NCBI GenBank assembly: GCA_021371965.1
Contig: JAJFVE010000130.1
Coordinates: 1 to 36,092, forward strand
Reading direction: 5' to 3'
From: Planctomycetaceae bacterium
GTDB lineage: Bacteria > Planctomycetota > Phycisphaerae > SM23-33
DNA length: 36,092 nucleotides
Made by a program: the position numbers and the translations under genes. Shown here piece after piece: positions 7,169 to 25,003 of the stretch (positions within the stretch are counted from its first letter, which is position 1; every line of letters begins with the position of its first letter). A model generated the notes under the pieces. It made no database searches and was not told the origin of the DNA. It saw only the letters and a list, made by a program, of their open reading frames with translations.

Positions 7169-9922
7169 CTACCGCTTGGGAATCATTCCTACTGATCCCT
7201 GCACGGGGTAAGGACACGTGCAACCGCTGGACGCCTCGGGCATCAGCACCATGCCGCCGGCGGGGATGATGTTGATCCAGCAGCCCGGGCGCGTCGCCGT
7301 GGTCAGGTGCTCGCTGGCCGGCGTCGAGAGGTCCGTCATCTGCGGGTACCCGCCGCGATTGAACACCTGCTTGGCCGAAGCGGAAACCGCTCCGCAGCCG
7401 CCGCCGTTGCGCCCCCACTGCCAGTTGGGCACGGCCTTGCCCGTCTTGAGCTCGTACTGCACCGCGGGGATGAACAGCCGCTCGCCGACGATGACCGCGC
7501 GGTAAGCGTTTTCGCCGTGGCTGCCGTCGGCGGCCTTGGCGCCCGGGCCGGTGTGCTCCATCTTCCACAGCCGATTGCCGCTGGCGGCGTCGAAGGCCTG
7601 CAGGTCGTACTTCAGCATCCCGCGCTTGCCGCCGGCGACGGTGCGCGAGTCGGTGGTGACGACCACGCCCCCGGCGACGCTGAGGAACAGCATGTGCTGG
7701 GCGGCTTCGAGGTCGGCCTTCTGGCGGTAGACCACCTTGCCGTCGCGCACATCCAGCGCCACCAACACGCCCCCGCCGCTCATCAGCACGGGCAGGGGCA
7801 CGCGGCCGGCCGCGTCTTCGCGCGACTTGGGATTCGTGCTCTCGATGAAGTACATCCGCCCATCCGCCACGGCGATGGTCGAGTTGACGATCATGCCCTC
7901 CTGCGGGCGGTAGGTCCACAGGCGCGTGCCGCTATGGCGATCGACGGCGAAGACGTTCTCGCTGCAGACCATGGGCGAGAGCGGGTTATACGAAAACTGC
8001 CAGGTGCTCTGGCCGATCTCGCGCCGATGCGCCCCGGGGCGGCACAGGCTGCCAAAGAGGGCGTCGCCCACGGTGGCCACATAGCCCCACTCGCAGGCCT
8101 TGCCGCCGATGTCGGCGTTGACGGTCAACTTTTTCTGGCCCGTCCGCACGTCGTAGGCCTCACACGCCCCGCCGGCGGCGATATAGAGCAGGTCTTCCGC
8201 CACGGCCATATTGCCGCAGGCTTTGCTGGTGTCCAGGCGCACGGAATTGGGCAGGGCGTGTTCCCAGAGCATCGCGCCGTTGTACGAGTCGACGCAGGCC
8301 AGGTAGTCGTAGCCGCTGACGAACAGCCGTCCGTCGCGATACAGCGGGGCGGCGGCGCGGTTGTGCCGGTCGGCCATCGTCCGCGGACCCGGCAGGCCAA
8401 ACCACTGGACCGTCATGCCCGCCCCGACCAGCGTCTCGCCGCTGCAGGTGCTGTTGCCCGCGTCGGCGTAGCAGTGCGTCCATTGGCCCGCGCCTTCCAG
8501 CGGGCCGCGAATGACGGCTTTGCCCGCCTCGGTCACCGTCACGCCGCCGCAGGGGCGGGTGACGCGCTGCGCCTCGGCCTGGAAAGCCGCCGGCGCGTTG
8601 AGCACGAGATTGAAAAGGTAGTCGCTGTAGGGCAGCGCGTCGGCCTTGGCCTCATGCACGCTCACGCGGCCGCTCATGCCGCGGGCGTCCACAACCTTTC
8701 TCGCCGCGGCGGCGGCCGGGGCATCGGCGGCGGTCATCACCACCTGCATCTTCGACTGTCGCGCGACTTCGCACGCCAGTTCGGCCGGCCCGCCGATCAC
8801 CAGCGCGTAGCCTTTGTCGGTCTGGGCCTTGGCCAGGGCGTCCTTGGCGAGGGCGGCGAACTTCTCGTCAGACGCGGCAGCCTTGGGCGCCGCGGCCTGG
8901 ACTACCGTGCCCGCGCCGCTGCCGGGGGCGAAGCAGTAGATCTTGCCTGCATCGGTGCTGACCAGGAGCTTGCCGCCAGCCACCGCCAGCGACCAGGCTT
9001 TGCCCTCGACCTTGAGCGTCCAGATCTTGTTCTTTGCCTTGAAGGCCGCCACCTCGCCGTCGCCGCCGGCGATGCGGATTTCGTCGGTGCCGATGAAGCA
9101 GTACGGATATGCCGCCGCACAGGGCTCGTGCTTGAGGATCGAACCGGCCGCCGGCGTGGCGACCGTGTCGACCGCGCCGCCGGCCGTGCGACCCGCCGGG
9201 GCGAACACCTGCGTCCCCTGCAGGCGCAGATATCCCTGGGCCGCCACCGCGACGGACTTCGAGGAGAGCTTCTTGCCGCTGGCGATGTCCGCCGTCACCA
9301 CATAAACGCCGCCGCCCTGGTTGGGAAAGAGCCCCGCGCAGAAATACGCCACGTTGCCGCTGACGAGCACGCTGGTGCGCACCGGCCAGAGACTGATGAT
9401 GCGCCCGTTGCCGGCGATGCGCCGGTCCTGGTCGGTCGCGCGGAGCTTCCAGATCAGCGTTCCATCGGCGGCCTTGAGTGCGTACGCGCAGCCGTCGTCG
9501 CTGGCGAAGAGCACCTTGTCGCCAACGACCGTCGGCGCCAGGCGCACGGGGCCTTCCGTGGCGAACGCCCACAACTCTTTGCCGGTGGCGGCGTCGAGGC
9601 AGCGGACGTTGTCGTCGGCCGATGAGCCGAAGAACACGCGCCCGCCGGCGGAGACCACCTGGAACGCGCGGTCGTACGGACAGTCGGGGGCGAGGTTCTT
9701 CTTGGAATGAAAGACGTCATCCTTGGCCGGGTCCGGCCAGGCCGGCGCGGGGGGCATCGCGGCGGTGTACACCCACTGCAGGGCAAGGGGCCCGGGAAGC
9801 TTGTCGGTCGATTCGCCCGTTCGGGCGGCATCGTGCATGTACGTGGGCCAATCCTCAGCCTGCAGAGGCAGGGCGTTTACAAGCAGAGCGACCAGCACCG
9901 CGGGCAAGAACTTCTGAACCAT
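7169..9922 (-). CDS. Exported PQQ-like beta-propeller protein with degenerate methyltransferase-like insert
   Basis: 917 residues. Signal peptide MVQKFLPAVLVALLVNALPL, mature start about AEDWPTYMHDAARTG. Propeller blades carry the PQQ-repeat pattern (VRCLDAATGKELWAF, AYALKAADGTLIWKL, ACVDSYNGAMLWEH, VFAVDRHSGTRLWTY, LQAFDAASGNRLWKM). Residues about 371-470 interrupt the propeller with a Rossmann methyltransferase-like segment (GYALVIGG...MQVVMTAAD...ADALPYSDYLFNLVLN...RPCGGVTV); the glycine loop seen in its two paralogues (GxGSGR) is here GGPAEL, so SAM binding is doubtful. The C-terminus ends with PGCWIN...SGCTCPYPVQGSVGM, a Cys motif shared with the paralogues; the malectin-like domain of the paralogues is absent. 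ATG 9922 has AGGA 8 bases upstream. It is convergent with the beta-helix gene. The true ligand is unknown; PQQ binding itself is not shown. Confidence 0.87.
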   Translation of the reverse strand: MVQKFLPAVLVALLVNALPLQAEDWPTYMHDAARTGESTDKLPGPLALQWVYTAAMPPAPAWPDPAKDDVFHSKKNLAPDCPYDRAFQVVSAGGRVFFGSSADDNVRCLDAATGKELWAFATEGPVRLAPTVVGDKVLFASDDGCAYALKAADGTLIWKLRATDQDRRIAGNGRIISLWPVRTSVLVSGNVAYFCAGLFPNQGGGVYVVTADIASGKKLSSKSVAVAAQGYLRLQGTQVFAPAGRTAGGAVDTVATPAAGSILKHEPCAAAYPYCFIGTDEIRIAGGDGEVAAFKAKNKIWTLKVEGKAWSLAVAGGKLLVSTDAGKIYCFAPGSGAGTVVQAAAPKAAASDEKFAALAKDALAKAQTDKGYALVIGGPAELACEVARQSKMQVVMTAADAPAAAAARKVVDARGMSGRVSVHEAKADALPYSDYLFNLVLNAPAAFQAEAQRVTRPCGGVTVTEAGKAVIRGPLEGAGQWTHCYADAGNSTCSGETLVGAGMTVQWFGLPGPRTMADRHNRAAAPLYRDGRLFVSGYDYLACVDSYNGAMLWEHALPNSVRLDTSKACGNMAVAEDLLYIAAGGACEAYDVRTGQKKLTVNADIGGKACEWGYVATVGDALFGSLCRPGAHRREIGQSTWQFSYNPLSPMVCSENVFAVDRHSGTRLWTYRPQEGMIVNSTIAVADGRMYFIESTNPKSREDAAGRVPLPVLMSGGGVLVALDVRDGKVVYRQKADLEAAQHMLFLSVAGGVVVTTDSRTVAGGKRGMLKYDLQAFDAASGNRLWKMEHTGPGAKAADGSHGENAYRAVIVGERLFIPAVQYELKTGKAVPNWQWGRNGGGCGAVSASAKQVFNRGGYPQMTDLSTPASEHLTTATRPGCWINIIPAGGMVLMPEASSGCTCPYPVQGSVGMIPKR

Positions 9923-9951
9923 CTCCAGTCCTTTCGAAAAGCCCCCCAGCG

Positions 9952-9957
9952 ATTATA
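9952..9957 (-). promoter_or_regulatory. Possible -10 box for the PQQ-like gene at 9922
   Basis: A perfect TATAAT on the minus strand lies 29 bases before the start codon at 9922. No good -35 hexamer is found at 16-18 bases, so this is a partial promoter match only. Confidence 0.3.
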
Positions 9958-10104
9958 CAGGTATTGAACCACAGACGACATGGCAGCGACCGCGGAGGTT
10001 TGGGCGCGGACTATCTGCGTTACTGTTCCTGTTCTTTGTTGTTTAATTGTTTTGTCGTTTGTTTCGGATTTGTCTTTTCGTATTTCGAATTTGCTGGAGC
10101 AGAT

Positions 10105-12093
10105 ATGTCCCCCCTGAATCTCTATGTCTCGCCGACGGGCAGCGACCGCAACTGCGGCAGCGAAGCCGAACCTTTCCGCACGCCCGAGGCCGCCCGCGAC
10201 GCCCTGCGCAGGAAGAAGAACCGCGCTGGTGCGGTGGTGTATCTGCGCGGGGGCATCTATGAGCTCAACAAAAGCTTCACGCTCGACCGCCGCGACGGCG
10301 GCAGCGCCAAATCGCCCATCACGTGGCGGTCGTACCCCGGCGAGCAGGCGCGATTCGTCGGCGGGCGAAAGCTGCCCGGCGACATGTTCAAGCCGGTTAC
10401 CAGCAAGGCGATTCTCTCGCGCATCATCAGCAAGGCCGCCCGCCGCAAGGTCGTGCAGATCGACCTGCGCAAGTGCGGCATTACGGACTTCGGCGAGTTA
10501 GCAGTGCGGGGCTTCGGCGGCGGCTGCAAGGCGGCGCACCTGGAGCTGTTCTTCAACGGCCTGCCCATGCAGCTCGCGCGCTATCCCAACGACGGCTACC
10601 TGCGGATCTCCGGCGTCGAGTCCAAAACCACCTTCAAGACCCGAGGCCGCCGCATGGCGCTGTGGTCCAAGGCCGAAGACCTCTGGCTGCACGGCAACTG
10701 GGACTACATCTGGGCCGACCTGTACGTGCCGGTGGCTGGCCTCGATGCAAAGAAGCGCACGATCACCGTCGCCCGCGAGCAGGAGATGAAGAAAGGCCGC
10801 CCGTTTTACGCCGTCAACCTGCTCGAAGAGATCGACGCCCCCGGCGAGTGGTACCTCGACCGCAAGAGCGGCCTGCTGTACTTCTGGCCGCCTGCTGACC
10901 CGCGCAAGGCGGATGTTGTCGTTTCGGTGCTGAAGGAGGAACTGCTGCGCGTCGAGGGCGCGGCGCACCTGCGATTTGAGGACCTGACCTTCGAGGTCGG
11001 CCGGGCGAACCTGGTCAGGGTGCAAAAGGGCGACGACGTGGTCTTCACCCGCTGCACGATCAAGAACGCCGGCATCGAGGGCGGGTCGATCCACGGCCGC
11101 GGCTGCGGGCTGACCGAGTGCGAAGTCGCCTGGTGCGGTAACGCGGGCATTTCGCTGCACGGCGGCGACCGGCCCAAGCTCATCCGCGGCGACAACTTCG
11201 TGACCCACTGCCGCATGCACCACTTCGGGCGCTGGTGCAAGACGTACACGCCTGCCGTGGCGTTCGAGGGCGTCGGGCATACCGTCGCGCACAACGAGTT
11301 CAGCGAAGGCCCGCACGCGGCGGTGCTGTTCGGCGGCAACGACCACCGCGTCGAGTACAACCACATTCATCACGTGGGGCAGTACGCCAGCAACGGCGGG
11401 GCGATCTACATCGGCCTGGGCTGGGACCAGCGGGGCAACCTGATCCGCTACAACTACCTGCACGACCTGAAGGGGCGCATCCCCGGCGGCGAGTACGGGA
11501 TCATGGCGATTTATCTCGACGACTGCAACAGCGGCAACACGGTGCATGGCAATATCGTCTCCGACGTGGTGGGCTTCGGCCTGCTGATGGGCGGCGGGCG
11601 CGACAACATCATCACAAACAACATCTTCGTGCGCTGCGGCGAGGCGTTCGGGGCCGACAGCCGCGGCATCGAGCGCATCATCGACGAGACCAACAGCCAC
11701 TGGAACCTGCTGCGGTGGATGAAGGGCAACGGCATCAACCACAAGACCGAACCGTGGGCGAGCGCGTATCCCAAGCTGGCGCGCATCCCGGATTCGTGGG
11801 AAGAGATCCAGAAAGGCCGCTGGCGCTACCCCGAGGGCTGCGTGTTCTCGCGGAACCTCGGCTGGGACAACAAGAAATTCATCCACACCGAGAACAGCGG
11901 CGGTGACGGCACGCTCAAGGCCTTCGCCCAGGTCAAGGACAACGTCGAGAACGCCGACCCCTGCTTCGTCGATCAAAGCGGCGGCAACGTCTCCCTGCGC
12001 GACGACAGCCCGGCGTGGAAGATCAACGGCTTCCAGCGGATCCCGGTGGAGAAAATCGGCCCTCAGCCCGGAAAAGAACCGCGCCTGGAGTGA
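10105..12093 (+). CDS. Right-handed beta-helix protein, GH141-like, start uncertain
   Basis: 662 residues from ATG 10105, which has GGAG at 10096-10099. The N-terminus LYVSPTGSDRNCGSEAEPF...PEAARDALRRKK matches the mature start of the paralogue at 4898. Then VVYLRGGIYEL, DGGSAKSPITWRSYPGEQARFVGG, an LELFFNGLPMQLARYPNDGYL segment typical of GH141-like proteins, and beta-helix coils with CxMHHFGRW, YNHIHHVGQY, YNYLHDLKG and TNNIFVRCG. The tail is GGNVSLRDDSPAWKINGF. No signal peptide follows ATG 10105, but the codons just upstream read in frame as a hydrophobic stretch ending FAGAD, with TTG codons at 10036 and 10039 as possible starts. Either the protein is cytoplasmic or the export signal begins at a non-ATG codon. 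The 3' end of this gene is duplicated at 13304. Confidence 0.82.
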   Translation: MSPLNLYVSPTGSDRNCGSEAEPFRTPEAARDALRRKKNRAGAVVYLRGGIYELNKSFTLDRRDGGSAKSPITWRSYPGEQARFVGGRKLPGDMFKPVTSKAILSRIISKAARRKVVQIDLRKCGITDFGELAVRGFGGGCKAAHLELFFNGLPMQLARYPNDGYLRISGVESKTTFKTRGRRMALWSKAEDLWLHGNWDYIWADLYVPVAGLDAKKRTITVAREQEMKKGRPFYAVNLLEEIDAPGEWYLDRKSGLLYFWPPADPRKADVVVSVLKEELLRVEGAAHLRFEDLTFEVGRANLVRVQKGDDVVFTRCTIKNAGIEGGSIHGRGCGLTECEVAWCGNAGISLHGGDRPKLIRGDNFVTHCRMHHFGRWCKTYTPAVAFEGVGHTVAHNEFSEGPHAAVLFGGNDHRVEYNHIHHVGQYASNGGAIYIGLGWDQRGNLIRYNYLHDLKGRIPGGEYGIMAIYLDDCNSGNTVHGNIVSDVVGFGLLMGGGRDNIITNNIFVRCGEAFGADSRGIERIIDETNSHWNLLRWMKGNGINHKTEPWASAYPKLARIPDSWEEIQKGRWRYPEGCVFSRNLGWDNKKFIHTENSGGDGTLKAFAQVKDNVENADPCFVDQSGGNVSLRDDSPAWKINGFQRIPVEKIGPQPGKEPRLE

Positions 12094-12163
12094 AATCAGC
12101 GGCCGAGCCCGCCACGGCGGGTCTTCGACTTAATTGTGGGACCTGTTTCCCATGGGAGTTCCT

Positions 12164-12496
12164 ATGAAAGTCAAGCTTCGGCCACCTATGGACAATCTTG
12201 AGAATGTTCCTCGAGGTGTCAGGCCCGGCTATGAGTACTTGGTTTTAGGAATTGAGGCTGATGACTATAGACTCCTGAATGATGAGGCAGAGCCGGTCCT
12301 GTATGATCTGACACTATTTGATATTGTCGATGACCAAGAACCCTCTAATTGGATTCATCATGTCGGTCCTGACGGTGAACACTACGCCTACCCCCCAGAA
12401 TTGAACGCCCGTGGTTTTTTTGAGGATTATCATGATGGGGTTCCAGCTTCGGTGGAGACTTTCAGGCGGTTTCTTTCGTCCCTAAACGACAAATAG
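12164..12496 (+). CDS. Small acidic hypothetical protein, immunity-like size
   Basis: 110 residues. ATG 12164 is chosen because GGGAG lies 5 bases upstream; in-frame ATGs at 12134 and 12152 lack this. No signal or membrane segment. The core reads as a compact beta-rich domain: YEYLVLGIEADDYRLLNDE, VLYDLTLFDIVDD, SNWIHHVGPDGEHYAYPPEL, GFFEDYHDG. I recall short stand-alone proteins with this 'VLGIEA...RLLND.GEPVLYD...F.IVD' pattern in several bacterial groups, always as unknowns, but I cannot name the family. It is AT-richer than the beta-helix gene that ends 70 bp upstream and is transcribed in the same direction. Confidence 0.75.
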   Translation: MKVKLRPPMDNLENVPRGVRPGYEYLVLGIEADDYRLLNDEAEPVLYDLTLFDIVDDQEPSNWIHHVGPDGEHYAYPPELNARGFFEDYHDGVPASVETFRRFLSSLNDK

Positions 12497-12505
12497 TATG
12501 GTCAT

Positions 12506-12520
12506 TGGGGACTGACCCCA
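12506..12520 (+). terminator. Weak hairpin after small gene, terminator or repeat
   Basis: TGGGG-ACTGA-CCCCA forms a 5-bp stem followed by an A/T-rich stretch without a clean T-run. It lies 10 bases after the stop codon of the 110-residue gene. It may be a weak terminator or a degenerate dispersed repeat. Confidence 0.25.
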
Positions 12521-12589
12521 TAAAATTATGCTTTTGACAGAATGCGCGGGCGGGGATAGCGTCTTGTTTATGGTCTGCCGAGTCCCAGT

Positions 12590-13135
12590 ATGAACGGATC
12601 TATAAATATCCAGTTTCACATGCTGCTCGACGAAATGATCGATTTTGTTGCTGCAGTGAGTAAGGAGTACTCATTATCCGTTGACTTGGAGCGGTGGGGA
12701 CCATCTCAGGCCAATCGTGAAGTCTCTCCAGAAGAGGACCTGGTCGTCGCGGCGCGGGATTTCGGGCATATAGATAGAATCTGGCTGCTATACCGCTCGG
12801 CTCGGATGCGAAAGCCTGAACGGTTCATGCTGAACGTTGGGACATTCAGAGGGAAGGAATTGAGTCAAGCTCAGTTGGGTGCTGGGACAGACAAGAAAGG
12901 TGCTTTCGAGATACTAAAGAGAATAGCTGCAGAATTACGACGGCGCACAACGGCAGGCGTCTGGGTGGTTTCACCGACTGGCCATGCTGGTTTCACAAAG
13001 GCATTTCGGATCTCACCTGGTGCCGCTGCCGCGTCACGCGCCGGCCAGATTGAGCTTAAGAACATAGCATTTGGACAACTCATGACCGTTGATCCGCCGA
13101 CGGAATTAGATTTAGAGAATGCCGCTATCAGGTGA
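12590..13135 (+). CDS. Hypothetical protein in low-GC island
   Basis: 181 residues, not recognised, soluble, no signal peptide. The sequence suggests an alpha/beta domain: helix LLDEMIDFVAAVSKEY, strand SVDLERWG, acidic loop SPEEDLVVAARDFGHIDRIWLLYRSA, FMLNVGTFRGKEL, helix AFEILKRIAAELRRR, strand GVWVVSPTG, then a C-terminal segment ending DPPTELDLENAAIR. No strong ribosome binding site precedes ATG 12590; the next in-frame ATG (12620) is no better. AT-rich relative to the flanks. It lies 93 bp after the 110-residue gene in the same direction and is followed at once by transposase-related debris, so it was probably brought in with the rest of the island. Confidence 0.65.
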   Translation: MNGSINIQFHMLLDEMIDFVAAVSKEYSLSVDLERWGPSQANREVSPEEDLVVAARDFGHIDRIWLLYRSARMRKPERFMLNVGTFRGKELSQAQLGAGTDKKGAFEILKRIAAELRRRTTAGVWVVSPTGHAGFTKAFRISPGAAAASRAGQIELKNIAFGQLMTVDPPTELDLENAAIR

Positions 13136-13304
13136 CACCATACATGTTTTGTGCTTGTGGGCACCTCTGGCAGGCGCGGTTGGCGTCATTCGTGTTATCC
13201 GGGGACACCTTACAGGTTCTGTGCTTGTAATGGGCGCGACTGCGGGTTAGGAGGCGGCATGGGCAGATGCGCGAGTTGTCATTCCGGAGTTGCCACAACG
13301 CAGG
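13134..13304 (+). mobile_element. Remnant of REP-associated (Y1) tyrosine transposase, 5' end only
   Basis: Bases 13263-13304 read ADARVVIPELPQRR in one frame. This resembles the conserved N-terminus of REP-associated tyrosine transposases (ARVVxPGxPHHVTQRG), and the match is lost after about 12 residues. The usual ATG is displaced by a one-base shift at 13260-13264. Upstream are two 25-bp direct repeats with three mismatches (13134-13158 and 13204-13228, GACACCxTACAxGTTxTGTG core), consistent with the repeat leader of such elements. Nothing downstream encodes the catalytic HUH or Tyr motifs, so the element is dead. The family call rests on memory of the motif. Confidence 0.5.
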
Positions 13305-13417
13305 GCGGCAACGTCGCCCTGCGCGACGACAGCCCGGCGTGGAAGATCAAAGGCTTCAAGCGAATCCCGGTCGAGAAAATCGGCCCGCAGTCTGGAAAAC
13401 AACCGCGCGTCGGGTAA
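13304..13417 (+). pseudogene. Duplicated 3' end of the beta-helix gene
   Basis: Codes GGNVALRDDSPAWKIKGF...IPVEKIGPQSGKQPRVG then stop, nearly the same as the last 38 codons of the gene ending at 12093 (GGNVSLRDDSPAWKINGF...IPVEKIGPQPGKEPRLE). The similarity continues for about 18 bases past the stop codon (AxTCAGCGGCC). There is no start or signal of its own, and it abuts the transposase remnant. It is either a leftover of a second beta-helix paralogue or the product of a duplication or insertion event at the 3' end of the gene at 10105. Confidence 0.85.
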
Positions 13418-13429
13418 AGTCAGCGGCCA

Positions 13430-13470
13430 AGCTCTTGTCCGGCATAGCTCGCAGAGCGGAGATGGATGCT
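13430..13470 (+). repeat. Left copy of inverted dispersed repeat flanking small paralogues
   Basis: Begins AGCTCTTGTC and ends GGATGCT. The reverse complement of 14839-14877 begins with the same 10 bases and ends with the same 7, with partial similarity between (GTAGC/ATAGC, GCGxAGxxGGATGCT). The pair brackets the two paralogous genes at 13555 and 14127. Confidence 0.45.
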
Positions 13471-13554
13471 GACGCGGGTATTAGCGGGTCGTCGCTTACG
13501 TCAAAAATATGGCTAGAGGCCAACCGCCGAATCCCTCTATGCGAAGGTTTAGCA

Positions 13555-13971
13555 ATGAATGAGATACTGGCCACCCTTATGCGGTACTTCAGCTTCTTGT
13601 ACGAGGAAGAAGGATTTAGATTCGTTGATTCCAGGGTGTATGACTCTGGCTCTGCGTACGTTGTACTGGCCGGTAAAGGATTATATATACTTTTCAGCGC
13701 GCACCACGACGAATGGGCGATAGATATCTCGAAAAACAATTATGGTGGAGGTGCCGAAGTATATCCTTTGGAGATGATGCGGGCCTGCCTGACAGGCAAT
13801 ACAGACAAACCGACTGGGCCGACATTGGATAAGACCATACCTGGCCTTGCTAAATGGTTTAGGAAGAATGTCGAGAGCGTTTGCGAAGCTCTATCAATAG
13901 CCAGACAAGAACAGACAAGAGCGGCGTTCACTCGCATGAGTGAGATAAACAAGAGGGCAATGGGGCTATGA
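13555..13971 (+). CDS. Hypothetical protein, first of two tandem paralogues
   Basis: 138 residues. ATG 13555 with GAAGG 7 bases upstream; the frame is open further back, but that part runs through the duplicated beta-helix debris. Pattern shared with the next gene: M(N/T)EIL..L..(Y/C)SFLY...GFRFVDS..(Y/F)........(V/I)ILA..G...L.FS...(D/E)E...(D/E), a central acidic part, then a C-terminal helix VESVCEALSIARQEQTRAAF. No signal, no membrane segment, no known catalytic motif. Small, acidic, duplicated and AT-rich, it has the general look of an immunity or anti-phage accessory protein, but no toxin partner is visible. Function unknown. Confidence 0.72.
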   Translation: MNEILATLMRYFSFLYEEEGFRFVDSRVYDSGSAYVVLAGKGLYILFSAHHDEWAIDISKNNYGGGAEVYPLEMMRACLTGNTDKPTGPTLDKTIPGLAKWFRKNVESVCEALSIARQEQTRAAFTRMSEINKRAMGL

Positions 13972-14126
13972 GAAGATTCTGTCCGCTCGCAACAACCCCG
14001 GCGGCCCGCCCCCAAAGAGGCAAAACGAGAAGAGAAATGACTAGTCCAATGTAGTGGTCAGAGCATTGGATCCTATTCGCAGAGCAGATTGGCAACGAAT
14101 CTAGCGCTTAGTGAGAGAGAATAACA

Positions 14127-14546
14127 ATGACCGAGATACTGAAGTTCCTTATAGCATCTTGCAGCTTCCTGTATCAGGACTACGGCTTTAGATTTGTCGA
14201 CTCCAAAACATTCTCCACGAGGGACGCAATGATTATACTAGCCGCGGATGGATACCTCCGTCTGTGTTTCTCTTACGAGCGGGAAGAACTTCTCTTGGAG
14301 GTCCAGCCAGACACTGCAGAAGCTGAAGACACATGGTGGGGGATAAGCCTACTGGAAGAGCTTCTTACAGGGCACGATGTCGCAAGCGGCCTTATGTCAC
14401 ATGAAAAGGCGATATTTCTAAAGAAACACATGCCTGATGTAATGAGACTCTTCGATAAAGAGAGAGTGGCAGGGACTTGCGAAAAGCTAGCTTCATTACG
14501 TGAGCAAAGGAACAAGAAGATGTTTGGAGATGCTTGGTTTCGTTGA
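14127..14546 (+). CDS. Hypothetical protein, second of two tandem paralogues
   Basis: 139 residues. ATG 14127 with a GAGAGAGA purine tract about 8 bases upstream. It aligns with the 13555 gene along its length: MTEILKFL..CSFLYQDYGFRFVDSKTF, MIILAADGYLRLCFSYEREEL, LLEELLTG, then VAGTCEKLASLREQRNKKMF. Identity is clear but low outside the N-terminal 30 residues, so the duplication is old. Spacing to the first copy is 155 bp, with no obvious feature in between. Soluble, no signal peptide. Function unknown. Confidence 0.72.
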   Translation: MTEILKFLIASCSFLYQDYGFRFVDSKTFSTRDAMIILAADGYLRLCFSYEREELLLEVQPDTAEAEDTWWGISLLEELLTGHDVASGLMSHEKAIFLKKHMPDVMRLFDKERVAGTCEKLASLREQRNKKMFGDAWFR

Positions 14547-14585
14547 CAGTCTATCCTGCATAGCACATAGATCTAGGTGCCGCCA

Positions 14586-14804
14586 TCAGGAACCTGCTTT
14601 GGCTACGGCCGTAGCGAAAGTTATCATCACATGATCCCCGCCGCCTTTGGGTTCTCTGTTGGGGATCTCGATGCGGATGGTGCGGGTCTGGCTGGCGGCG
14701 TCGGCTACGGCGGCGATGAAGATGATCTTGGAGTCGACCACGCGGCCGTTGCCGAAGTCGACTTTGGCGGCCGCGCCCGGCTCGAGGTTGGCGGCCTGAT
14801 CGAC
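14586..14804 (-). pseudogene. Fragment of HlyD/RND-type membrane fusion protein gene
   Basis: About 72 codons read VDQAANLEPG, AKVDFGNGRVVDSKIIFIAA, VADAASQTRTIRIEIPN, then VMITF. This is the pattern of the C-terminal beta-barrel of HlyD/AcrA-type periplasmic adaptors (G.v.g.I.fI.p..D..sqT..v+v.vpN). The rest of the roughly 350-450-residue protein and its export partners are absent, so this is a remnant. Its GC content is high, unlike the neighbouring small genes, so it may belong to the older local sequence into which the island was inserted. Confidence 0.65.
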
Positions 14805-15038: not shown

Positions 15039-18000
15039 TTATTGTCCTTCCACGCACTCGATGCCGCTCAGGATCGGCTTGCCGGTCCTGGGCTTGAACT
15101 CGACGGTCAGCTTGTCGGACACGCTGACGTTCTTGAGTTCGACAACAAGCGACCGCTTTGGTCCGCCGGCGGCGGCCGCGACGTCGAGGCCTTGCCGGAC
15201 GACCTTGCCCTGGACGATCACGTCGAAGACGCGCTGACCGGTAGCGAGGCCGTCCATCTCGGCGAAGACCAGTCGCACCGTGTGCGGCCGCGCGGGCGAA
15301 CCCTCCGGGCCCATTCTCACCGACAGCGACTCGATACCCTCGGCGACGCTGGAAGCCACCCACGCCAGCGCGCCCGAGACGGTCGAGGGGTCCTGGCGGT
15401 GCAGGGCGCCGTTGAACTCGACGACCGTCGTGGCTTTCCTGCCGGAACCGACCTGTCGCCTGCCGCCGGGCTTGAGGTCCACATCCACCTGCATCTCTGG
15501 GCTGCCGGCGGGAGGATACTCCAGCCAGAGCGTGCCCTCGTACAGGCGGTCGCCGGGGGCGCCGAGGTTCAGACCGATCCGCTTAAGCACGCCCTCGGCC
15601 GGCGGGGGCAGAACGCTGTAGGTCCACATCTGCGCCTCGGGCATGTGCACCAGCGCCAGCGACGCCTGAAGCGGGTACGAGCAACTGCACGTGCGCGTGT
15701 AGTCGGGGGCACTGAGGACGCCGTCGGCGGCAATCAGGTTCGAGGTGCAGCCGCTCTTGAACCCGCCGAAGTTTCCCGTGCCGCCCTGGCCGAGCAGATC
15801 GTAGTAGCCCGCCGTGCCGCTGCGGAAGAACATCATGTTCTGGCTGGCGATAGCCGTGTTGCAGCCGTAGAAGCGATGCCACGCCCAGGGCACATCCTGG
15901 CCGCTGACGGGATGGCGCACCGTCGCGGGCTTTCCGGTCAGCAGCGAAAACGCCTCGCCGCCGTCGCCACCGTTGGTGATGCCCCGGTCGCGCCACAGGA
16001 GCACGGGCCCTTCGATCTTGCGGTCCATGTCCTGCCAGAGCACACTGCCGTCGGCGCCGCGATAGGCGACGATACCGCGCCCCGCCTCGTCGCCGGCGCG
16101 GTCGCGCGACCCGCTGCCGCACTGCAGCAGCGCGTCGTGCGCCGATGAGTATCCCAGCCACGTGCCGAAGATGTCCTTGTCGGCCGACCAGACCCCCTTG
16201 CCGGTCTTGAGGTCCAGCGCGACCAGCCGCCCGGGCGGGACCGGCTGACCGATGAACGCCAACTGCGCGCGGTTGCCTTCGGAGAAGTTATCCAGAGCGT
16301 AAACCTTACCGCCGCCAGTGGTGACGGCGTTGTGGCGATACGCCACAGCCGCCGGTCGCTGCCAGAGCACCTTGCCGCTGTCGCGGTCGAGGGCCACCAG
16401 GTTGCGGCTGCTGATGCCGAAGCGGGTGTTGAGTTTGACTTCCGCCGCGGCCGCCAGGTCGAACGTCGCGCCCATGGGCTTGGGTTTGGGTTTAACCTTG
16501 TCCTTGGGCTTGGGCAGCTTGACGTCGATCTCCATCGGTTCGGTGGTGGCCACCAGCACGTCGCCGGCGATCATCAGCACGCCCCAGTTGGGCGCGGCGC
16601 AGCCCGCCCGCGCCGGGGCCTTGAACGTCGCGGCGGTCTTGCCGGTGGCCGCATCGAGCACGACGATGTCGGGCCCGTTGATCAGGTACAGGCGGTCGAC
16701 CGTGATAGCGTAGTTGGAACCGAACTGGTTGGCACCGGGGATATGCCCCTGGTTGTAGCTGTCGTCGCGAACGTCGTCTTTGAAACTCCTGTCCCAGTAC
16801 ATGCCAAAGTTATTGAAGCCCTCGATCTTCCGCTGCCACAGCACGCGGCCGGTGTACACGTCGCGGGCAGAGATCATGTTGATGCCCTCGATGAACAGCC
16901 GCCCGCCGGCGACCTGCGGACTGGGCCCGTGGCCGTGGCGGGGCAGCACGTCGCGGAGATTGTCGCTGCCGAACCACAGCAGTCCCAGCGGCGCGGCCAC
17001 GCGATGCTCGGCGCCGACGACCGAGTTCGACGCGTCGGCGTATTGGTGCGTCCACTCGCCGGCGCCGGGCAGGGCGCCGCCGCGGCGGATGCGAACATCC
17101 GTTGCAGCCACCTCGACCGTCGCGCCCTCGAGCTTGCCGCCCTTAGCCAACGCGGCCAGCGCCTCGCCGCCGGGCAAGACCGCCACGCCGCCGTAAGGCC
17201 GCAGCGGCGCCACCAGGCGCTCGACGCTGCACTTTGCGGCGTCGAAGCCCGCAGCCGCGATGTCTTCGCTGGCGATCAGGCTGGCGAAGTACGGCGAGAG
17301 GTCGTAGTCGAAACCGTTGCCGACGATGGCGGCCACGCGCGGGCCGTAGAGCCCCGCGTCGCTCATGCGGCGGCGGAAGGCGTCGGCCTTGGCGGCGTCG
17401 GGCTCGATCACGACGATGTGCAGCTTCGACTGGGCCAGCAGCTCGTCGATCAACCGCCCGCTGCCCACGCCCAGCACCAGGGCGTACCCTTCGGTCGCAC
17501 TGGCGGCCAGCATCGCCTTGGCTTTTTCGGTCCAGGCATCGGCCGCTGCCGCCGGCAGGGCGGGCTTGAGTTCGTGCGCGACCGGCGAACCGCCGCCGGC
17601 GCCGAAGCAGTAGATGGCGCCCTCGCGCGTAACGACGAAGAGCTTGTTATCGGCCGTGATCGCGCGATGAAACTTGCCGCGGAACTGCCCGGCGAGGTCC
17701 TGCCCCACGCGTCCGCCCTGCTCGAGCACGGCCGAGACGACCGTGCCGTCGGGTCCGGGGCCATAGAACTTGTCGCCGGCGCGGAGGGCGATCTCCTTCA
17801 TCATCGGCGAGAGCTTGCCCTGCCAGAGCGGCTTGAACTTGTCGACGGGAACCTTCTTGCCCTTCTTGTCGAAGCCTTCGCCGAAGTAGTGTTCGAGACC
17901 CTTGAACTCGCCGGCGGCGATGTCGAGCATGAAGACCTGATTGTTCTCGCCCAAAAACCCCGGAGCCCCGCCGCTCTTGCTGCCATCGAGGGTGTACCGC

Positions 18001-18923
18001 TGGCCGCCGTTATAGTACCCGCCCCAGGCCACGTACACGTCCCACCCGCCGAGCTGCTTGGTCATCATGTTGTTGGCCAGGAGCTGGCCGGTCTTCTGGT
18101 CGAAGATCGCCGGGCGGTTGCGGCTGTTGGGGATGATCAGCCGCCCCTGTGCGGCCGCGAGGTACCCCTGCGGCGCGATGCCCGAAAACGACAGCGCCCC
18201 GCCGTGAGGCTGGACCGACCACTGCTGTCCGTTGCCGCTGTTGGTCCAGACCAGCTTGCCCGTCCGCGCGTCCATGCAGTAGATGAAGGTGCCCATGAAC
18301 GGCCAGAGCCCGGCGGCGAAGTACAGCTTGCCCTCGTCGAGCAGCAGCCCGCCGCGCGCGGGCCAGAGGCTGATCAGCCGCCCGTTGCCCAGTCCGCGGC
18401 GGTCGCCGCCGCCGGCGCGGAACTTCCACAGCAGCTTGCCCGTCGCCGCGTCGAGCGCGTAGAGATAGCCATCATCGCTGATACAGAAGATCTTGCCCTC
18501 GAACGCTGCCGGCGCCAGGCGGATGGGGCCTTCGGCGTAGAAGCGCCACTTCTCGGCGCCGGTGGCGGTGTCATACGCCCTCAGGCTGTCGTCGACCATC
18601 GACCCGATGTACAGCATGTTGCCCAGGACGATGGGCTCGTATGAGGCGTCGAATTGCAGCTTCCACTGCGTGTCGGGCCAAGCCGGCTGGGGCGCGGGCA
18701 GTTGGCGGCTCCAGAGGAGCTTCATGTCGGCAGGCAGCGCCGTCGGGACAATCCCGCGCCGCTGTGCGTCGAACTGCCACTGCGGCCAATCGCCCGCCAG
18801 AGCGGCAGGGGCACAAAGACAAATCGCCACCAATGGCAGAACCATTGCAGCCAACGACGTGTGGGCCGAAGAAACAACCTGACAGGCTTGTTTCGAATGC
18901 ATGGCACGAGGTTGCGAACTCAT
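15039..18923 (-). CDS. Exported PQQ-like beta-propeller with methyltransferase-like insert and C-terminal malectin domain
   Basis: 1294 residues. ATG 18923 has AAGGA 6 bases upstream and gives a signal peptide ending APAALAGDWPQW; a longer frame to 19091 runs through a palindromic repeat and is rejected. Blades: LRAYDTATGAEKWRFYA, LYALDAATGKLLWKFRA, IYCMDARTGKLVWTN, VLWQR-type repeats. Residues about 479-600 form a class I methyltransferase-like Rossmann unit with motif I GYALVLGVGSGRLIDELL and acidic end of strand 2 (IVVIEPD). Next is WTHQYADASN...PLGLLWFG...RHGHGPSPQVAGGRL, then more blades. Near the C-terminus is SGCTSN...PDYTRTCSCSYPLQASLAL, and the last 170 residues resemble malectin (VRLVFAE, GQRVFDVIVQGKVV, DVAAAAGG, ILSGIECVEG). 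Envelope location expected. Ligand and any enzymatic role unknown. Confidence 0.9.
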   Translation of the reverse strand: MSSQPRAMHSKQACQVVSSAHTSLAAMVLPLVAICLCAPAALAGDWPQWQFDAQRRGIVPTALPADMKLLWSRQLPAPQPAWPDTQWKLQFDASYEPIVLGNMLYIGSMVDDSLRAYDTATGAEKWRFYAEGPIRLAPAAFEGKIFCISDDGYLYALDAATGKLLWKFRAGGGDRRGLGNGRLISLWPARGGLLLDEGKLYFAAGLWPFMGTFIYCMDARTGKLVWTNSGNGQQWSVQPHGGALSFSGIAPQGYLAAAQGRLIIPNSRNRPAIFDQKTGQLLANNMMTKQLGGWDVYVAWGGYYNGGQRYTLDGSKSGGAPGFLGENNQVFMLDIAAGEFKGLEHYFGEGFDKKGKKVPVDKFKPLWQGKLSPMMKEIALRAGDKFYGPGPDGTVVSAVLEQGGRVGQDLAGQFRGKFHRAITADNKLFVVTREGAIYCFGAGGGSPVAHELKPALPAAAADAWTEKAKAMLAASATEGYALVLGVGSGRLIDELLAQSKLHIVVIEPDAAKADAFRRRMSDAGLYGPRVAAIVGNGFDYDLSPYFASLIASEDIAAAGFDAAKCSVERLVAPLRPYGGVAVLPGGEALAALAKGGKLEGATVEVAATDVRIRRGGALPGAGEWTHQYADASNSVVGAEHRVAAPLGLLWFGSDNLRDVLPRHGHGPSPQVAGGRLFIEGINMISARDVYTGRVLWQRKIEGFNNFGMYWDRSFKDDVRDDSYNQGHIPGANQFGSNYAITVDRLYLINGPDIVVLDAATGKTAATFKAPARAGCAAPNWGVLMIAGDVLVATTEPMEIDVKLPKPKDKVKPKPKPMGATFDLAAAAEVKLNTRFGISSRNLVALDRDSGKVLWQRPAAVAYRHNAVTTGGGKVYALDNFSEGNRAQLAFIGQPVPPGRLVALDLKTGKGVWSADKDIFGTWLGYSSAHDALLQCGSGSRDRAGDEAGRGIVAYRGADGSVLWQDMDRKIEGPVLLWRDRGITNGGDGGEAFSLLTGKPATVRHPVSGQDVPWAWHRFYGCNTAIASQNMMFFRSGTAGYYDLLGQGGTGNFGGFKSGCTSNLIAADGVLSAPDYTRTCSCSYPLQASLALVHMPEAQMWTYSVLPPPAEGVLKRIGLNLGAPGDRLYEGTLWLEYPPAGSPEMQVDVDLKPGGRRQVGSGRKATTVVEFNGALHRQDPSTVSGALAWVASSVAEGIESLSVRMGPEGSPARPHTVRLVFAEMDGLATGQRVFDVIVQGKVVRQGLDVAAAAGGPKRSLVVELKNVSVSDKLTVEFKPRTGKPILSGIECVEGQ

Positions 18924-18963
18924 CACGTATCCTTTCGAACACACAGCAGGAACTACTGTCAGC

Positions 18964-19066
18964 GGGTGCCGTGGCGCGCAGGGCCGGAAGGCCCGGAGAG
19001 CCACGATCCCTGATGTTGCAGCAAGAGGTCGTGGCTGTCGGGCTTGGCCCTGCCGCCACGGCACCC
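18964..19066. repeat. Nested palindrome family, copy B
   Basis: Outer arms GGGTGCCGTGGC at 18964 and complement ending 19066; inner arms AGCCACGA with TCGTGGCT. Same family as 7019-7117 and 23557-23649. It fills most of the 164 bp between the two large PQQ-like genes and so separates, or links by RNA structure, two genes read in the same direction. Confidence 0.8.
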
Positions 19067-19087
19067 TGGCGACCTTCTCCGCACTCA

Positions 19088-22000
19088 TCATTTTTCCGCT
19101 TCGTCGACTAATTCGACGCCGCAGATCAGCGTCTTTCCGGTCCGGGCGGTCAGACCGACTTTCAGGTCGTCGGCGATCATGACGTTCTTGAACTCTTTGA
19201 TGACGCTGCGTCTCGGGCCCCCGGCCGCGGCGGCGATGTCAAAGTTCGCCAGCACCACCTTGCCCTGCAGCGACACGTCGAACACGCGCGCCCCGGCGGC
19301 AACGTCGTCGGGCTCGGCAAAACACAGCCGCACGGTGAACGCCCGCGGCGGGCTGAATTGCCCGCCGGGGTTCTCGCCCCAGCTCGGGCTCTGGCCGACG
19401 CGGATGTTCCAGCCGCGCACGACTTCCTCCACCTTGCCCGACTGCGGCTGAAGGAACGGGCGGATGCGGATCTCGCTCAGGCCCGTCACGCCCGAGGCCG
19501 TCACCCAGTTCAGCGCGCCGGCGACGGTCGTGTTGTGGTTGCGGAAGAGCTCGCCGGCCCCGCTGGTGCGCACGGGGACGTCGGGCGAGGGTCCGGCGAT
19601 GCTGGGATGCTCGACCCACAGCGTGCCGCTGTCGGCTGTGCGGTTGCCCGGGGCGCCGAAGTTCACGCCCACGCGGCGCACGGCCGTGGGCCGGTGCACC
19701 GGCGGATAGGCGTCGATGCCCCAGTACTCGATCTCGGGCATGTTCACCATCGCCAGCGACGACTGGTTCTGATACGAGCACGTGCACGTGCGCGTGTAGT
19801 CGGGGGCGTTAAGCACGCCGTCGGCCACGATCAGGTTCGACGTGCAGCCGCTCTTGAACCCGCCCAGGCTGGCGGTGCCCTGGCAGAGGTCCATCGGCAC
19901 AAACGCCGCCGACGCCGAGCGGAAGGTCAGCAGGTGCTCGCTGGCCACGGCGGTGTTGCACCCCTTGAACCGCACCCATTCGTAGGGGATCTGCTGGCCG
20001 GTGACGATATGGCGGCGCATCATCGAGCCGCCGGTGAGCAGGTTGTAGACCTTGGCCGGCGGGGCATAGGTGTTGGCGCCGCCGGTCTGGGTAAGGATCA
20101 TGTCGCGGCGGATCACGGGCGGGCCGCTGTACGGCTCGTCGTGCGTCCAGATCACGCTACCGTCCTTGCCGCGATGAGCGGTCATGCCCTTGCCGACTTC
20201 GTCGCCGCCGCGGTCGGGGCCTTCGCTGCCGCCCTGGAGCAGGATGTCGTGCTCGGCCGAGTAGCCCAGCCACGTGCCGAAAACATTCTGGCTGGTCTGC
20301 CAGAGCACCTTGCCGCTATGGGCGTCGAAAGCGTACAAAGTCGGCTTGGCAGTGAACTCCACGCCGCGTCGGTCGAGATATTCCGCTCGCTGCTTGCTCA
20401 GACCATCGATCGCGAACACCTTGCCGGCGGCGGCCACCACTGCGTTGTGGCGGAACCCGTACTCGCCCTTGCGCTGCCAGAGCACCTTGCCGCTGACGCG
20501 GTCCATGACCACCAGCAACTCGCTGCTCTCGCCGAAGCGCCCGTTAGCCGTCACGCCCGGCACGCGCGAGTACACCGGCCGCCCGATCTGCTTGGCGCTG
20601 GGCGGCAGGGCCAGCAGGCACGCGTCGATCATGAAGTCGCTGCTGGAGACGCTGGTGTTGTGGCCTTCGATGGCCAGCACGTTCTTGCCAGGCCGCAGCA
20701 GGCCCTGGCACTTGATGTCAACGTATTCAAAATCCGTCGCGGGGTGCTCCTTGATCCCGCGGGCCTTGCCCCCGCTGCCTTTGGCCACGTTGCCCCGGGC
20801 CACTTCCTTGCCGTTGAGGTACGCGATGAACGCGTCGTCAAACTTCACGCCAAGGGTGAGCCACCGCAGCGTCGTGTCGGCCACCTCGAACGTGTGCCGC
20901 AGATACACCCGCGTGTACTTGCCGCGCATGTCGCTCAGCGTCGTCGCCGCGTCGGCGTACTTGTACCCGATGGGCAGCTTGCCGCTCTTCCAGCCGGCGG
21001 CCGCGTAATCGATATCGCCCCACTGCCCCTGCGGGTCCGACCCGGCGAGGTACTGCCAGGACGATCCCTTGGGGATAACCGGCACGAGCCCATCGGGCGA
21101 GGCCTGCCCCGCCTCAGGCACCTGCAGCGGCTGGGCCGTGGCGACCAGCACATCCTGGTCGGCCAGCACCACGCCCCAGTTGGGTGCGGCCGCGCCCTCG
21201 GCTGCGGGTAGTTTGAAGTCGGCCAGTGTTTCGCCGCTGGCGGCATTGAGCACGTGACAGACGGTCTGATCGACCAGGTACACGCGATCGGCCATCGTGA
21301 CGTAGTTGGAGCCGAACAGGTTGGCCCCGGGATAGTGCCCCTGGTTGCGGCCGCCATAGAACGGGTCGGGGTTATACGACTCGGTGTAGTACATCCCGAA
21401 GGTGTTGAGCTTGGGGAACTCCCGCCGCCAGATCACGCGGCCGGTGTACACGTCGCGTGCGTGGATCACGCCGATGCCCTCGATCACCAGCCGCCCGGCC
21501 GCCACCTGCGGGCTGGGCCCGTGCCCGTGCCGCGGCAGCACGTCCATGTTTGAAGGCCCGCCGAACCACATCAGCCCCAGCGGCGCCTTGGCGACGCTGT
21601 CGGTGGACGAGACCGTATTGGCGGCGCTGGCGTACTGGTGCGTCCAGTCGGCCGAGCCCGGCAGAGCCCCCACGCGCTGCATCCGGATATCGTCATCTCC
21701 ACGCCTTACGAGCACATGGTCGCTCCGCAATGCCTCGATCTTCGCCGTGAGATCGGGATTGCACGCCCTTTTGCCCGTCAGGTACAGCGTCCCTCCGTAG
21801 GGGCGCAGCATGTTCAGAATTGCGTCGGCTATCTGGGTATCGCTACCCAGACCTGCACCAGCAGGGTCTTCGCTGACGATCAGGCTGGCCAGGTAGGGCG
21901 CCACGCGCATGCCCGGCCGCGACGTCATCACATGCACCCGCTCGCCGTAGACGCCGGCGGCGTCGTAGCGGCGGCGGGCAGCAGCGATCTTGGCCGCATC

Positions 22001-23452
22001 GCTCTCAAAGACGATCACGTGCAGCTTGCTCTGGAGAATCAGTTCATCAACCAACCGCCCGCTACCCAGGCCCAGAGCGACAGCGTAGCCTTCAGCAGCG
22101 CCGCTGATCTTCATCGCTCCGGCAGCGATCTGTTTCCAGAGGTCGTCCTGAGTCGCGACGGGTTGAACCTGCGGCGCGGCGGCCTCCGGGGTGCGTGAGC
22201 CGCTGTTAAAGCAGTAAATCCTGCCCTCGCGCGTGACGACGAAAAGCTTGCCGTCGCCGGCGAGCATGGTCCAGATCTTGCCCTCGACTTTCGCCTGCCA
22301 GGCGACGGACTTGGCGGCCGTGTCTACGCAGATCACTGACGACGCGCCGTCGGAACCGTAGAGGCTTTTGCCGGCGCCAATGTGCAGCTTCTTCATGCCG
22401 CCTGAAGGCACTTGCCAGAGGATGTTGGGCGGACCGGGCTTGGACGTCTTGCCGCGACGGTCGGGAATCGGCGGACCGAACATCTTCAGCTCGCGGGCGA
22501 CGATCTGCTCGCCTTCGAGGCCGATGGCGGCCTCGTCGGTCAACACCGCCGCGGGGCTGTTGGTTTTGGGCTCGCCGTCGGCGGCGGCTGCCACCTGGCG
22601 TTCGCACCAGAACAGACCGGCGGCCGAAATCACGTCATAGCCGCCGGCGTGCGTGACGGCGTTGCACCAGAGGAACCGCCCGGTCTTGCGGTCGTAACCG
22701 GCCGGCACGGATCGCCCGCCGGGCACGACGAGCGTGTCGCCCGAGACGGTCATGTACCCTTGGGGGCCCACGCCGGCGAAAGCGGGGCTGGCGTGCGGCT
22801 GGAGGATGTAGACCGCCCCGCTGCCGCTGTTGCACCAGAGGACCTTGCCGCTGTCGGCGTCGACGGCGTAGATGAACGTGCCCATGAACGGCCAGATTCC
22901 GGCGGCGAAGTAGACCACGCCGTCGGCCAGCACCGGCCCGCCCCGCGCCGGCCAGGCCGACGAGAGGCGATCGTTGGCCAGGATGCGATAGTCCATCGCC
23001 GGACCTTGCACCTTGTACAGCAGCTTGCCATCGGCCAGCGAGAGGCAGTACAAGTTGCCGTCGTCGCTGGAGAACCAGCATTTGTCTTTCGAGGCCACCG
23101 GCGCGAACCGCACCGGGGCGTCGGCGTAGAACCGCCACTTCTGGGCGCCAGTGTCGGTGTCATACGCGGTGACGCTGTCGCGCACCATCGACGGCACGAT
23201 CAGCAGCTTGCCGGCCACAATCGGTTCGTATGAGGCGTCGAACTGCTGCTTGTGCTGATTGAACGGCCAGGCCGACTTGGGCGTGGGCAGATGGATCGAC
23301 CACTGGCCGCTGAAGGATCGCGGCAGGGCCTCGCTCGTCCAGGCGCCGTGTCCGGGATTGTATCGCCACATGGGCCAGTCGCCCGCGTCTGCCGGGACGG
23401 CTGCGACCGCCAGTGCGCCCAGGATCGCCATCAATGCCGAAAGACGTTTCAC
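19088..23452 (-). CDS. Largest exported PQQ-like beta-propeller: methyltransferase-like, galactose-binding-like and malectin domains
   Basis: 1454 residues. ATG 23452 with GGAG 7 bases upstream; signal peptide MKRLSALMAILGALAVAAVP, mature start about ADAGDWPMWRYNPGHG. Blades as in the 1294-residue neighbour (VTAYDTDTGAQKWRFYA, IYAVDADSGKVLWCN). Methyltransferase-like unit at about 454-580 with GYAVALGLGSGRLVDELI and VIVFESD. Then WTHQYASAAN...RHGHGPSPQVAAGRLVIEG. An extra beta-sandwich at about 795-950 (WQYLAGSDPQGQW, YLRHTFEV, FDDAFIAYLNGKEVARGN, NVLAIEGHNTSVSSSDF) resembles the lectin-like domain common in planctomycete surface proteins. More blades, the Cys motif SGCTSN...PDYTRTCTCSYQNQSSLAM, then a malectin-like C-terminus (VRLCFAEPD, RVFDVSLQGKVVL, DIAAAAGG, LICGVELVD). 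It is probably an envelope glycan-binding or sensing protein; activity is not established. Confidence 0.9.
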   Translation of the reverse strand: MKRLSALMAILGALAVAAVPADAGDWPMWRYNPGHGAWTSEALPRSFSGQWSIHLPTPKSAWPFNQHKQQFDASYEPIVAGKLLIVPSMVRDSVTAYDTDTGAQKWRFYADAPVRFAPVASKDKCWFSSDDGNLYCLSLADGKLLYKVQGPAMDYRILANDRLSSAWPARGGPVLADGVVYFAAGIWPFMGTFIYAVDADSGKVLWCNSGSGAVYILQPHASPAFAGVGPQGYMTVSGDTLVVPGGRSVPAGYDRKTGRFLWCNAVTHAGGYDVISAAGLFWCERQVAAAADGEPKTNSPAAVLTDEAAIGLEGEQIVARELKMFGPPIPDRRGKTSKPGPPNILWQVPSGGMKKLHIGAGKSLYGSDGASSVICVDTAAKSVAWQAKVEGKIWTMLAGDGKLFVVTREGRIYCFNSGSRTPEAAAPQVQPVATQDDLWKQIAAGAMKISGAAEGYAVALGLGSGRLVDELILQSKLHVIVFESDAAKIAAARRRYDAAGVYGERVHVMTSRPGMRVAPYLASLIVSEDPAGAGLGSDTQIADAILNMLRPYGGTLYLTGKRACNPDLTAKIEALRSDHVLVRRGDDDIRMQRVGALPGSADWTHQYASAANTVSSTDSVAKAPLGLMWFGGPSNMDVLPRHGHGPSPQVAAGRLVIEGIGVIHARDVYTGRVIWRREFPKLNTFGMYYTESYNPDPFYGGRNQGHYPGANLFGSNYVTMADRVYLVDQTVCHVLNAASGETLADFKLPAAEGAAAPNWGVVLADQDVLVATAQPLQVPEAGQASPDGLVPVIPKGSSWQYLAGSDPQGQWGDIDYAAAGWKSGKLPIGYKYADAATTLSDMRGKYTRVYLRHTFEVADTTLRWLTLGVKFDDAFIAYLNGKEVARGNVAKGSGGKARGIKEHPATDFEYVDIKCQGLLRPGKNVLAIEGHNTSVSSSDFMIDACLLALPPSAKQIGRPVYSRVPGVTANGRFGESSELLVVMDRVSGKVLWQRKGEYGFRHNAVVAAAGKVFAIDGLSKQRAEYLDRRGVEFTAKPTLYAFDAHSGKVLWQTSQNVFGTWLGYSAEHDILLQGGSEGPDRGGDEVGKGMTAHRGKDGSVIWTHDEPYSGPPVIRRDMILTQTGGANTYAPPAKVYNLLTGGSMMRRHIVTGQQIPYEWVRFKGCNTAVASEHLLTFRSASAAFVPMDLCQGTASLGGFKSGCTSNLIVADGVLNAPDYTRTCTCSYQNQSSLAMVNMPEIEYWGIDAYPPVHRPTAVRRVGVNFGAPGNRTADSGTLWVEHPSIAGPSPDVPVRTSGAGELFRNHNTTVAGALNWVTASGVTGLSEIRIRPFLQPQSGKVEEVVRGWNIRVGQSPSWGENPGGQFSPPRAFTVRLCFAEPDDVAAGARVFDVSLQGKVVLANFDIAAAAGGPRRSVIKEFKNVMIADDLKVGLTARTGKTLICGVELVDEAEK

Positions 23453-24988: not shown

Positions 24989-25003
24989 CGGATTCTGGAA
25001 CGC

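Follow-up and report, generated by a model that had tools for sequence, protein, structure and literature searches.

The locus described here raises the question of what a class I methyltransferase-like (MT) domain is doing within large propeller proteins that appear to leave the cytoplasm. The window, by which we mean the whole stretch of 36,092 nucleotides that was analysed, carries three such proteins on its minus strand (ORFs 7169-9922, 15039-19091 and 19088-23452), each favoured over antisense ORFs by its high third-position GC. Genes for a partner protein and for the permease and ATPase of an ABC system are divergent from protein 3. The features are as follows.

7169..9922, minus strand: protein 1 (P0001, 917 aa), with signal peptide (by eye), propeller 1 (aa ~22-340), MT-fold domain and propeller 2
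8516..8878, minus strand: MT-fold domain of protein 1 (aa 349-469), with a degenerate SAM pocket
7172..8491, minus strand: propeller 2 of protein 1 (aa 478-917), with C843, C881, C901, C903 and H520
15039..19091, minus strand: protein 2 (P0002, 1350 aa as called), with signal peptide (by eye), propeller 1, MT-fold domain, propeller 2 and malectin-like domain
17073..17552, minus strand: MT-fold domain of protein 2 (aa 514-673), with GVGSGR and an acidic beta2 end
19088..23452, minus strand: protein 3 (P0003, 1454 aa), with signal peptide (by eye), propeller 1, MT-fold domain, propeller 2 and malectin-like domain
21665..22156, minus strand: MT-fold domain of protein 3 (aa 433-596), with GLGSGR and an acidic beta2 end
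23777..24988, plus strand: partner (P0244, 403 aa), with signal peptide (by eye), CxC (C285, C287) and C-terminal hydrophobic segment (by eye)
25004..26371, plus strand: FtsX/LolC/MacB-type ABC permease (P0245, 455 aa)
26371..27024, plus strand: LolD/MacB/FtsE-like ABC ATPase (P0246)

The true start of protein 2 is likely at 18923. Pfam recognises PQQ_2/PQQ blades in all three proteins and Malectin in two of them. A sequence-only reading of this DNA had described exported proteins whose Rossmann domain resembles class I methyltransferases; both the modelled fold and the signal-like starts agree with that description. The structure prediction which it proposed was carried out for protein 2 using a piece longer than the domain itself (aa 498-682). 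The resulting model (pLDDT 91.9) is a Rossmann unit displaying the beta6-beta7 hairpin of class I methyltransferases, and structure comparison returned strong matches to SAM-bound enzymes. The same reading had placed the insert between the halves of one propeller, and here it was mistaken: propeller 2 of protein 1 alone matches complete 8-bladed BamB-type propellers, on which basis a single interrupted propeller was rejected. The closure and blade number of propeller 1 are predicted from the order of strands. Protein 3 also displays, by eye, an additional segment of about 150 residues within propeller 2 (~aa 785-950; SSWQYLAGSDPQGQW...) with the look of a jelly roll.

Family searches at E<=1e-20 returned 756 and 1715 proteins, and the best 120 of each were listed; together with the three window proteins these 240 homologues make up the main set of 243. 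(Set A1 comprises P0001 and 85 of the 240 listed homologues, A2 has 72 rows and A3 has 17 of 22 pieces.) The listed homologues come from Planctomycetota, Verrucomicrobia, Poribacteria and others, and nearly all of those with a source name are called PQQ-binding-like, BamB or hypothetical proteins. Many of the rows carry precomputed methyltransferase Pfams, and architectures of this kind therefore already exist as automatic annotation. Further loci occur in MAGs labelled Kiritimatiellia, Hydrogenedentota, Omnitrophota, Armatimonadota and Calditrichaceae, labels which may reflect mis-binning. The insert is present at 79/80 named-genome loci, and the profile search in other genomes suggested by the sequence-only reading found further copies. 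At E<=1e-6 the matches per genome number 29 in G011, 19 in G001, 16 in both G007 and G037, 13 in G002, 9 in G086, 1 in G021 and 0 in G030, where some matches are two pieces of one gene and a few lie in short ORFs.

Alignment of the main set shows that H520, C843, R856, C881, C901, C903 and Q908 of propeller 2 are invariant (243/243) and that H483 is kept in 240/243, while propeller 1 contributes the invariant residues D142, D143 and R182. An MT-fold domain directly precedes an 8-bladed PQQ/BamB-type propeller bearing this invariant Cys4/His set, and the N-terminal propeller 1 and the malectin or LamG domains are optional. The insert is itself found in 243/243 proteins, but all of them were fished with insert-containing queries, so a search with propeller 2 alone is the fairer test. 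Among the best 120 of its 135 matches, 80 proteins have a near-complete propeller 2; CxC occurs close to its end in all 80, and 55 of them include the MT domain. The starts of nine of the 25 MT-less proteins were inspected, and eight begin within the final portion of the MT domain or beyond it and look truncated. P0297 looks like a genuine loss of the MT core, L036 (6447-10916; both propellers, MT match absent) is a second candidate for such a loss, and the absence in P0292 (67-kb contig) and P0334 (115-kb contig) is possibly a real loss or a frameshift. (The pattern CxC.[YFW], seen in 69/106 MT ORFs versus 2/15 MT-less ORFs, is too strict and was left out of the argument.) Complete-looking short forms run from a signal peptide through a small N-terminal domain to the MT domain and propeller 2; the small domain has a precomputed PF16656 match in P0349 and a similar-looking counterpart in P0317 (class I SAM-dependent methyltransferase in its source record) and P0325. 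P0296 from Poribacteria (634 aa) consists of signal peptide, MT domain and propeller 2 and nothing else. The core unit thus looks like the MT domain plus propeller 2, from which propeller 1 can be absent.

The known PQQ dehydrogenase and BamB families do not accommodate these proteins. The best of the three scores 48.1 bits as PQQ-dependent alcohol dehydrogenase (NCBIfam subfamily cut-off 480.05), 73.5 bits against the BamB equivalog TIGR03300 (protein 1; cut-off 285.2) and 57.4 bits against BamB NF008351 (protein 2; cut-off 423), and membership of the known PQQ dehydrogenases or of BamB was rejected by these cut-offs. To our knowledge, neither the MT domain, nor the Cys4/His set, nor the partner module is a feature of BamB. 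The top Foldseek match of the full model is the tetrathionate hydrolase of Acidithiobacillus (6l8a, 7cqy), also the only solved structure matched in a single-sequence search with propeller 2 of protein 1 (E 4.5e-6), and the 8-bladed propeller is homologous to that of 6l8a. Tetrathionate hydrolase lacks both the MT domain and the Cys4/His set, whereas the MT-propellers have both. The portion of PMC10859504 drawn on here describes this hydrolase as functioning without PQQ and its single Cys as dispensable.

A simple test of hydrophobicity and charge found signal-peptide-like N-termini in 195/243 proteins compared with 254/4860 internal windows and, judged by such sequence features, most MT-propellers look Sec-exported. 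The motif RRx[FLIVM] lies within the first 35 residues in only 19/243 (7.8%, against 4.4% of shuffled N-termini), which makes the set mostly Sec-like, so that most members would cross the membrane unfolded. This weakens the suggestion of the sequence-only reading that the domain loads or acts on its ligand in the cytoplasm, before export. That idea could draw on the slight excess of RR motifs over the shuffled expectation and on a SAM pocket that is intact in part of the family, but, as most members would be exported unfolded, we find it scarcely credible; Tat export of a preloaded domain was rejected as a general explanation.

The SAM pocket itself tells a divided story. We defined its intact signature as the three motif-I glycines plus the acid of beta2. 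Proteins 2 and 3 retain it, as their GxGSGR loop and acidic beta2 end had already indicated, and protein 1 has lost it, its third motif-I glycine and beta2 acid being missing. The conservation mapping that had been proposed for this pocket gave a mixed result: the signature is intact in 156/243 proteins of the main set and in 15/23 short forms, some of which show an acidic motif I of canonical form (IDYGCGTG, for example), but in only 25/83 ORFs from named-genome loci and 10/23 partner-linked ORFs (a group that takes in the three window ORFs and three low scorers of 55, 55 and 44 bits). The top conserved positions of the domain are instead G535, P632, R573, G635 and R585 (0.98-1.00), all outside the pocket as judged by the usual motif positions, compared with 0.87, 0.78 and 0.86 for the motif-I glycines. 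A second set, of 165 sequences, likewise shows pocket residues less well kept than the others, although there R585 drops to 0.80 and D565, adjoining the pocket, stands at 0.85. Comparison of the window with genome G001 gave dN/dS values for proteins 2 and 3, respectively, of 0.22 and 0.32 in the MT domain, 0.16 and 0.33 in propeller 2, and 0.11 and 0.18 in propeller 1; a row for P0001 was out of frame and was left out. The MT values are similar to those of propeller 2 and higher than those of propeller 1 and, to judge from these ratios, the domain is under purifying selection.

It is possible to read these data as a working exported SAM-type domain, which would bind SAM or a related adenosyl compound outside the cytoplasm and either methylate or sense. 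The intact pocket of 156/243 proteins speaks for a continuing importance of ligand binding in many members, and the frequency of intact short forms, the strong structural match to SAM-bound enzymes and the purifying selection would all be expected. We nevertheless consider this reading unlikely, given the low counts among named-locus and partner-linked ORFs, the better conservation of several non-pocket residues and the Sec-exported look of the proteins; moreover, we know of no SAM pool in the envelope. Because the pocket has decayed in a large part of the family, whereas several residues of the fold and those of propeller 2 are fixed, the structural relic or other ligand that the sequence-only reading had also offered fits better than an active SAM enzyme. 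In comparison with class I SAM-dependent methyltransferases of the UbiE/Methyltransf_25 type (3dlc, 2o57), the domain here is exported, fused to a propeller and eroded at its pocket in many members. If it still binds SAM-like ligands, one would have to ask about adenosyl compounds beyond the cytoplasm, and if it no longer does so, the family offers a large-scale example of a methyltransferase fold that persists as its pocket decays.

A sequence-only view of the three large proteins, although correct about the domain, had included neither the Cys4/His set nor the partner and ABC genes (23777-27024), and it is these that point to a cell-envelope system. The partner has a Cys at the expected mature N-terminus (ACDTPVFRYAMEKW), and its invariants across 24 sequences include C26 and C285xC287. 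Searches against Pfam, NCBIfam and PDB sequences gave no convincing match. The presence of the partner is strongly associated with that of MT-propellers. The partner was surveyed at E<=0.001, with no more than 6 first-look candidates scored in each genome, and the MT-propeller at E<=1e-12, with no more than 10; each survey covered 300 genomes, 294 of them from the phylum, and the two are taken as the same sample. Among the 294, both are found in 42, the partner only in 1, the MT-propeller only in 8 and neither in 243 (43 and 50 genomes in total for partner and MT-propeller; Fisher p 1.5e-41, kinship not being corrected for). Two of the 43 partner matches are weak (G234, 1.1e-4; G388, 2.0e-4). 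The partner-only genome, G269, has a partial propeller 2 on the contig of its partner, and the eight MT-positive genomes in which the partner went undetected are G170, G188, G190, G254, G310, G312, G336 and G346.

The association extends to gene neighbourhoods. In other genomes 33 partner loci were considered (34 minus L152, whose partner is weak with a score of 24), using distances between stop-to-stop ORFs, for which 0 can mean overlap. A permease lies within 1 kb in 26 of the loci; 17 have an MT-propeller somewhere in the examined stretch, 14 of them within 5 kb. Five of the 16 stretches from which the MT gene is absent (L163-L167) belong to one genus whose genomes have MT-propellers elsewhere, and others are short contigs. 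In L168 (G421, 751-5568) a single ORF of 1606 aa runs from propeller 1 through the MT domain, propeller 2 and a malectin-like stretch (by eye) into the partner. A diverged partner subfamily (ACRYxVRExGF...), which hhalign relates to the first at 99.3%, adjoins MT-propellers in Planctomycetota (L023, L028), Phycisphaerales (L024, L044), Verrucomicrobiales (L069) and a MAG labelled Flavobacteriaceae (L033). A window-like permease and ATPase are also present in L024, L028, L033 and L069; L023 has a permease where its contig ends, and the contig of L044 is 4 kb long. We conclude that the linkage between partner and MT-propeller is well supported. Separately, a weak 40-aa partner match in G388:C342 (8604-8723) lies ~2.7 kb downstream of the MT match in an 1821-aa ORF, possibly as a second fusion or as a neighbour.

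On balance we tentatively favour the idea that a conserved cell-envelope module has the MT-propellers as its exported part and that, within it, the ABC system and the partner service Cys4/His propellers, with the MT domain mostly acting as a pseudo-methyltransferase coupling domain. The Cys4/His set, near the closure of propeller 2, would be a metal- or thiol-based working site which the ABC system and partner might mature or load from the inner membrane. One module could serve several propeller paralogues: G001, G007, G011 and G037 each have one partner gene beside many insert-profile matches, and G261, G291 and G344 have two partner genes each. The MT domain presumably descends from a SAM-binding enzyme and, in the envelope, would mostly be a non-catalytic coupling or ligand-binding domain beside the Cys site. 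Such a role would allow the pocket to erode while fold and position do not. NosZ, which holds CuZ in a propeller, offers an analogy. In the part of PMC7558416 used here, NosDFY and NosL are an ABC system and anchored accessory proteins serving this exported copper enzyme, which is Tat-exported, unlike the mostly Sec-like MT-propellers. The likeness goes no further than analogy, since the present case comprises genetic linkage and invariant Cys/His residues, from which the chemistry is inferred.

The ABC genes also admit a different role. Type VII ABC systems include lipoprotein release and mechanotransmission among their functions, and the window permease and ATPase are of the same class as LolCDE, MacB and FtsEX. 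They might form, with the partner, a Lol/MacB-style sorting or release machine that sends propellers to the outer membrane or surface, where malectin and LamG domains would bind glycans, with no maturation of a metal or thiol site. The best matches of the two genes are indeed LolD (ATPase) and lolCE (permease), Malectin or LamG domains are found on many listed propeller homologues, GH42 and alpha-L-fucosidase-like genes are among the window neighbours, and the C-terminal hydrophobic segment of the partner would suit such a machine. However, the scores of 182.8 bits (LolD, cut-off 307.75) and 44.6 bits (LolC/E, cut-off 362.45) fall below the family cut-offs in a system whose linked genes encode MT-propellers and an unclassified CxC partner, a lipobox-like pattern occurs in only 19/243 proteins, and sorting leaves the invariant Cys4/His set and the partner CxC unexplained. 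We regard it as possible but on the doubtful side.

The four propeller-2 Cys lie outside the strands in the structure model and could be structural disulfides. In that case they would form two disulfides, and the partner, which has a thioredoxin-like appearance by eye, would be a dedicated thiol-handling oxidase or isomerase. An invariant CxC in propeller and partner alike and the exported nature of the proteins speak for this, but the partner has no thioredoxin-family match in Pfam or in the PDB sequence search, and disulfide chemistry needs no ABC drive, making it distinctly unlikely in our view. The boldest combination, which we hold to be quite improbable, is an exported and still ligand-competent SAM-type domain beside a metal site made by the propeller Cys4/His set, this site being built and serviced by the dedicated ABC system and a new family of CxC partners, with methyl or adenosyl chemistry outside the cytoplasm.

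Our preferred reading, that of a serviced envelope module, bears on a wider problem in that planctomycetes and their relatives have many 'BamB'/PQQ-like paralogues of unknown role. Some of these now share a common core (MT domain and Cys4/His propeller), a genetic partner and an ABC transporter, which makes their function testable in a cultured planctomycete. As the sequence-only reading had supposed, no function for the combination was found: the literature searched on it, on the partner and module, and on exported or periplasmic methyltransferases yielded no describing paper. The part of PMC8567305 drawn on here puts the number of BamB paralogues in Tuwongella immobilis at 28, with no mention of a methyltransferase domain in them.

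Several observations concern the loci more generally. MT-propeller loci L001, L004, L034, L060 and L066 each have ORFs of two recurring clusters, one of which shows several 'TRR.F/TRR.L' starts that are Tat-like by eye. Divergence between the window and G001:C5 is uneven along the locus, with protein 1 100% identical, protein 3 80% and the partner 77%. An Rfam scan of the whole window gave zero matches. Elsewhere in the window are an alpha-L-fucosidase-like gene (811-2223, plus strand), a beta-galactosidase carrying all three GH42 domains (2694-4730, minus strand) and two beta-helix ORFs (4763-6892 and 9478-12093). A propeller with cytochrome c / CCP_MauG matches (27128-28924) adjoins a gene matching the hydrazine synthase alpha middle domain (28921-31467, minus strand; PF18582, E 1.3e-35) with a weak PD40 match, and a 1251-aa protein (31585-35340, minus strand) combines autotransporter-type PATR repeats with a marginal match to PEP-CTERM.
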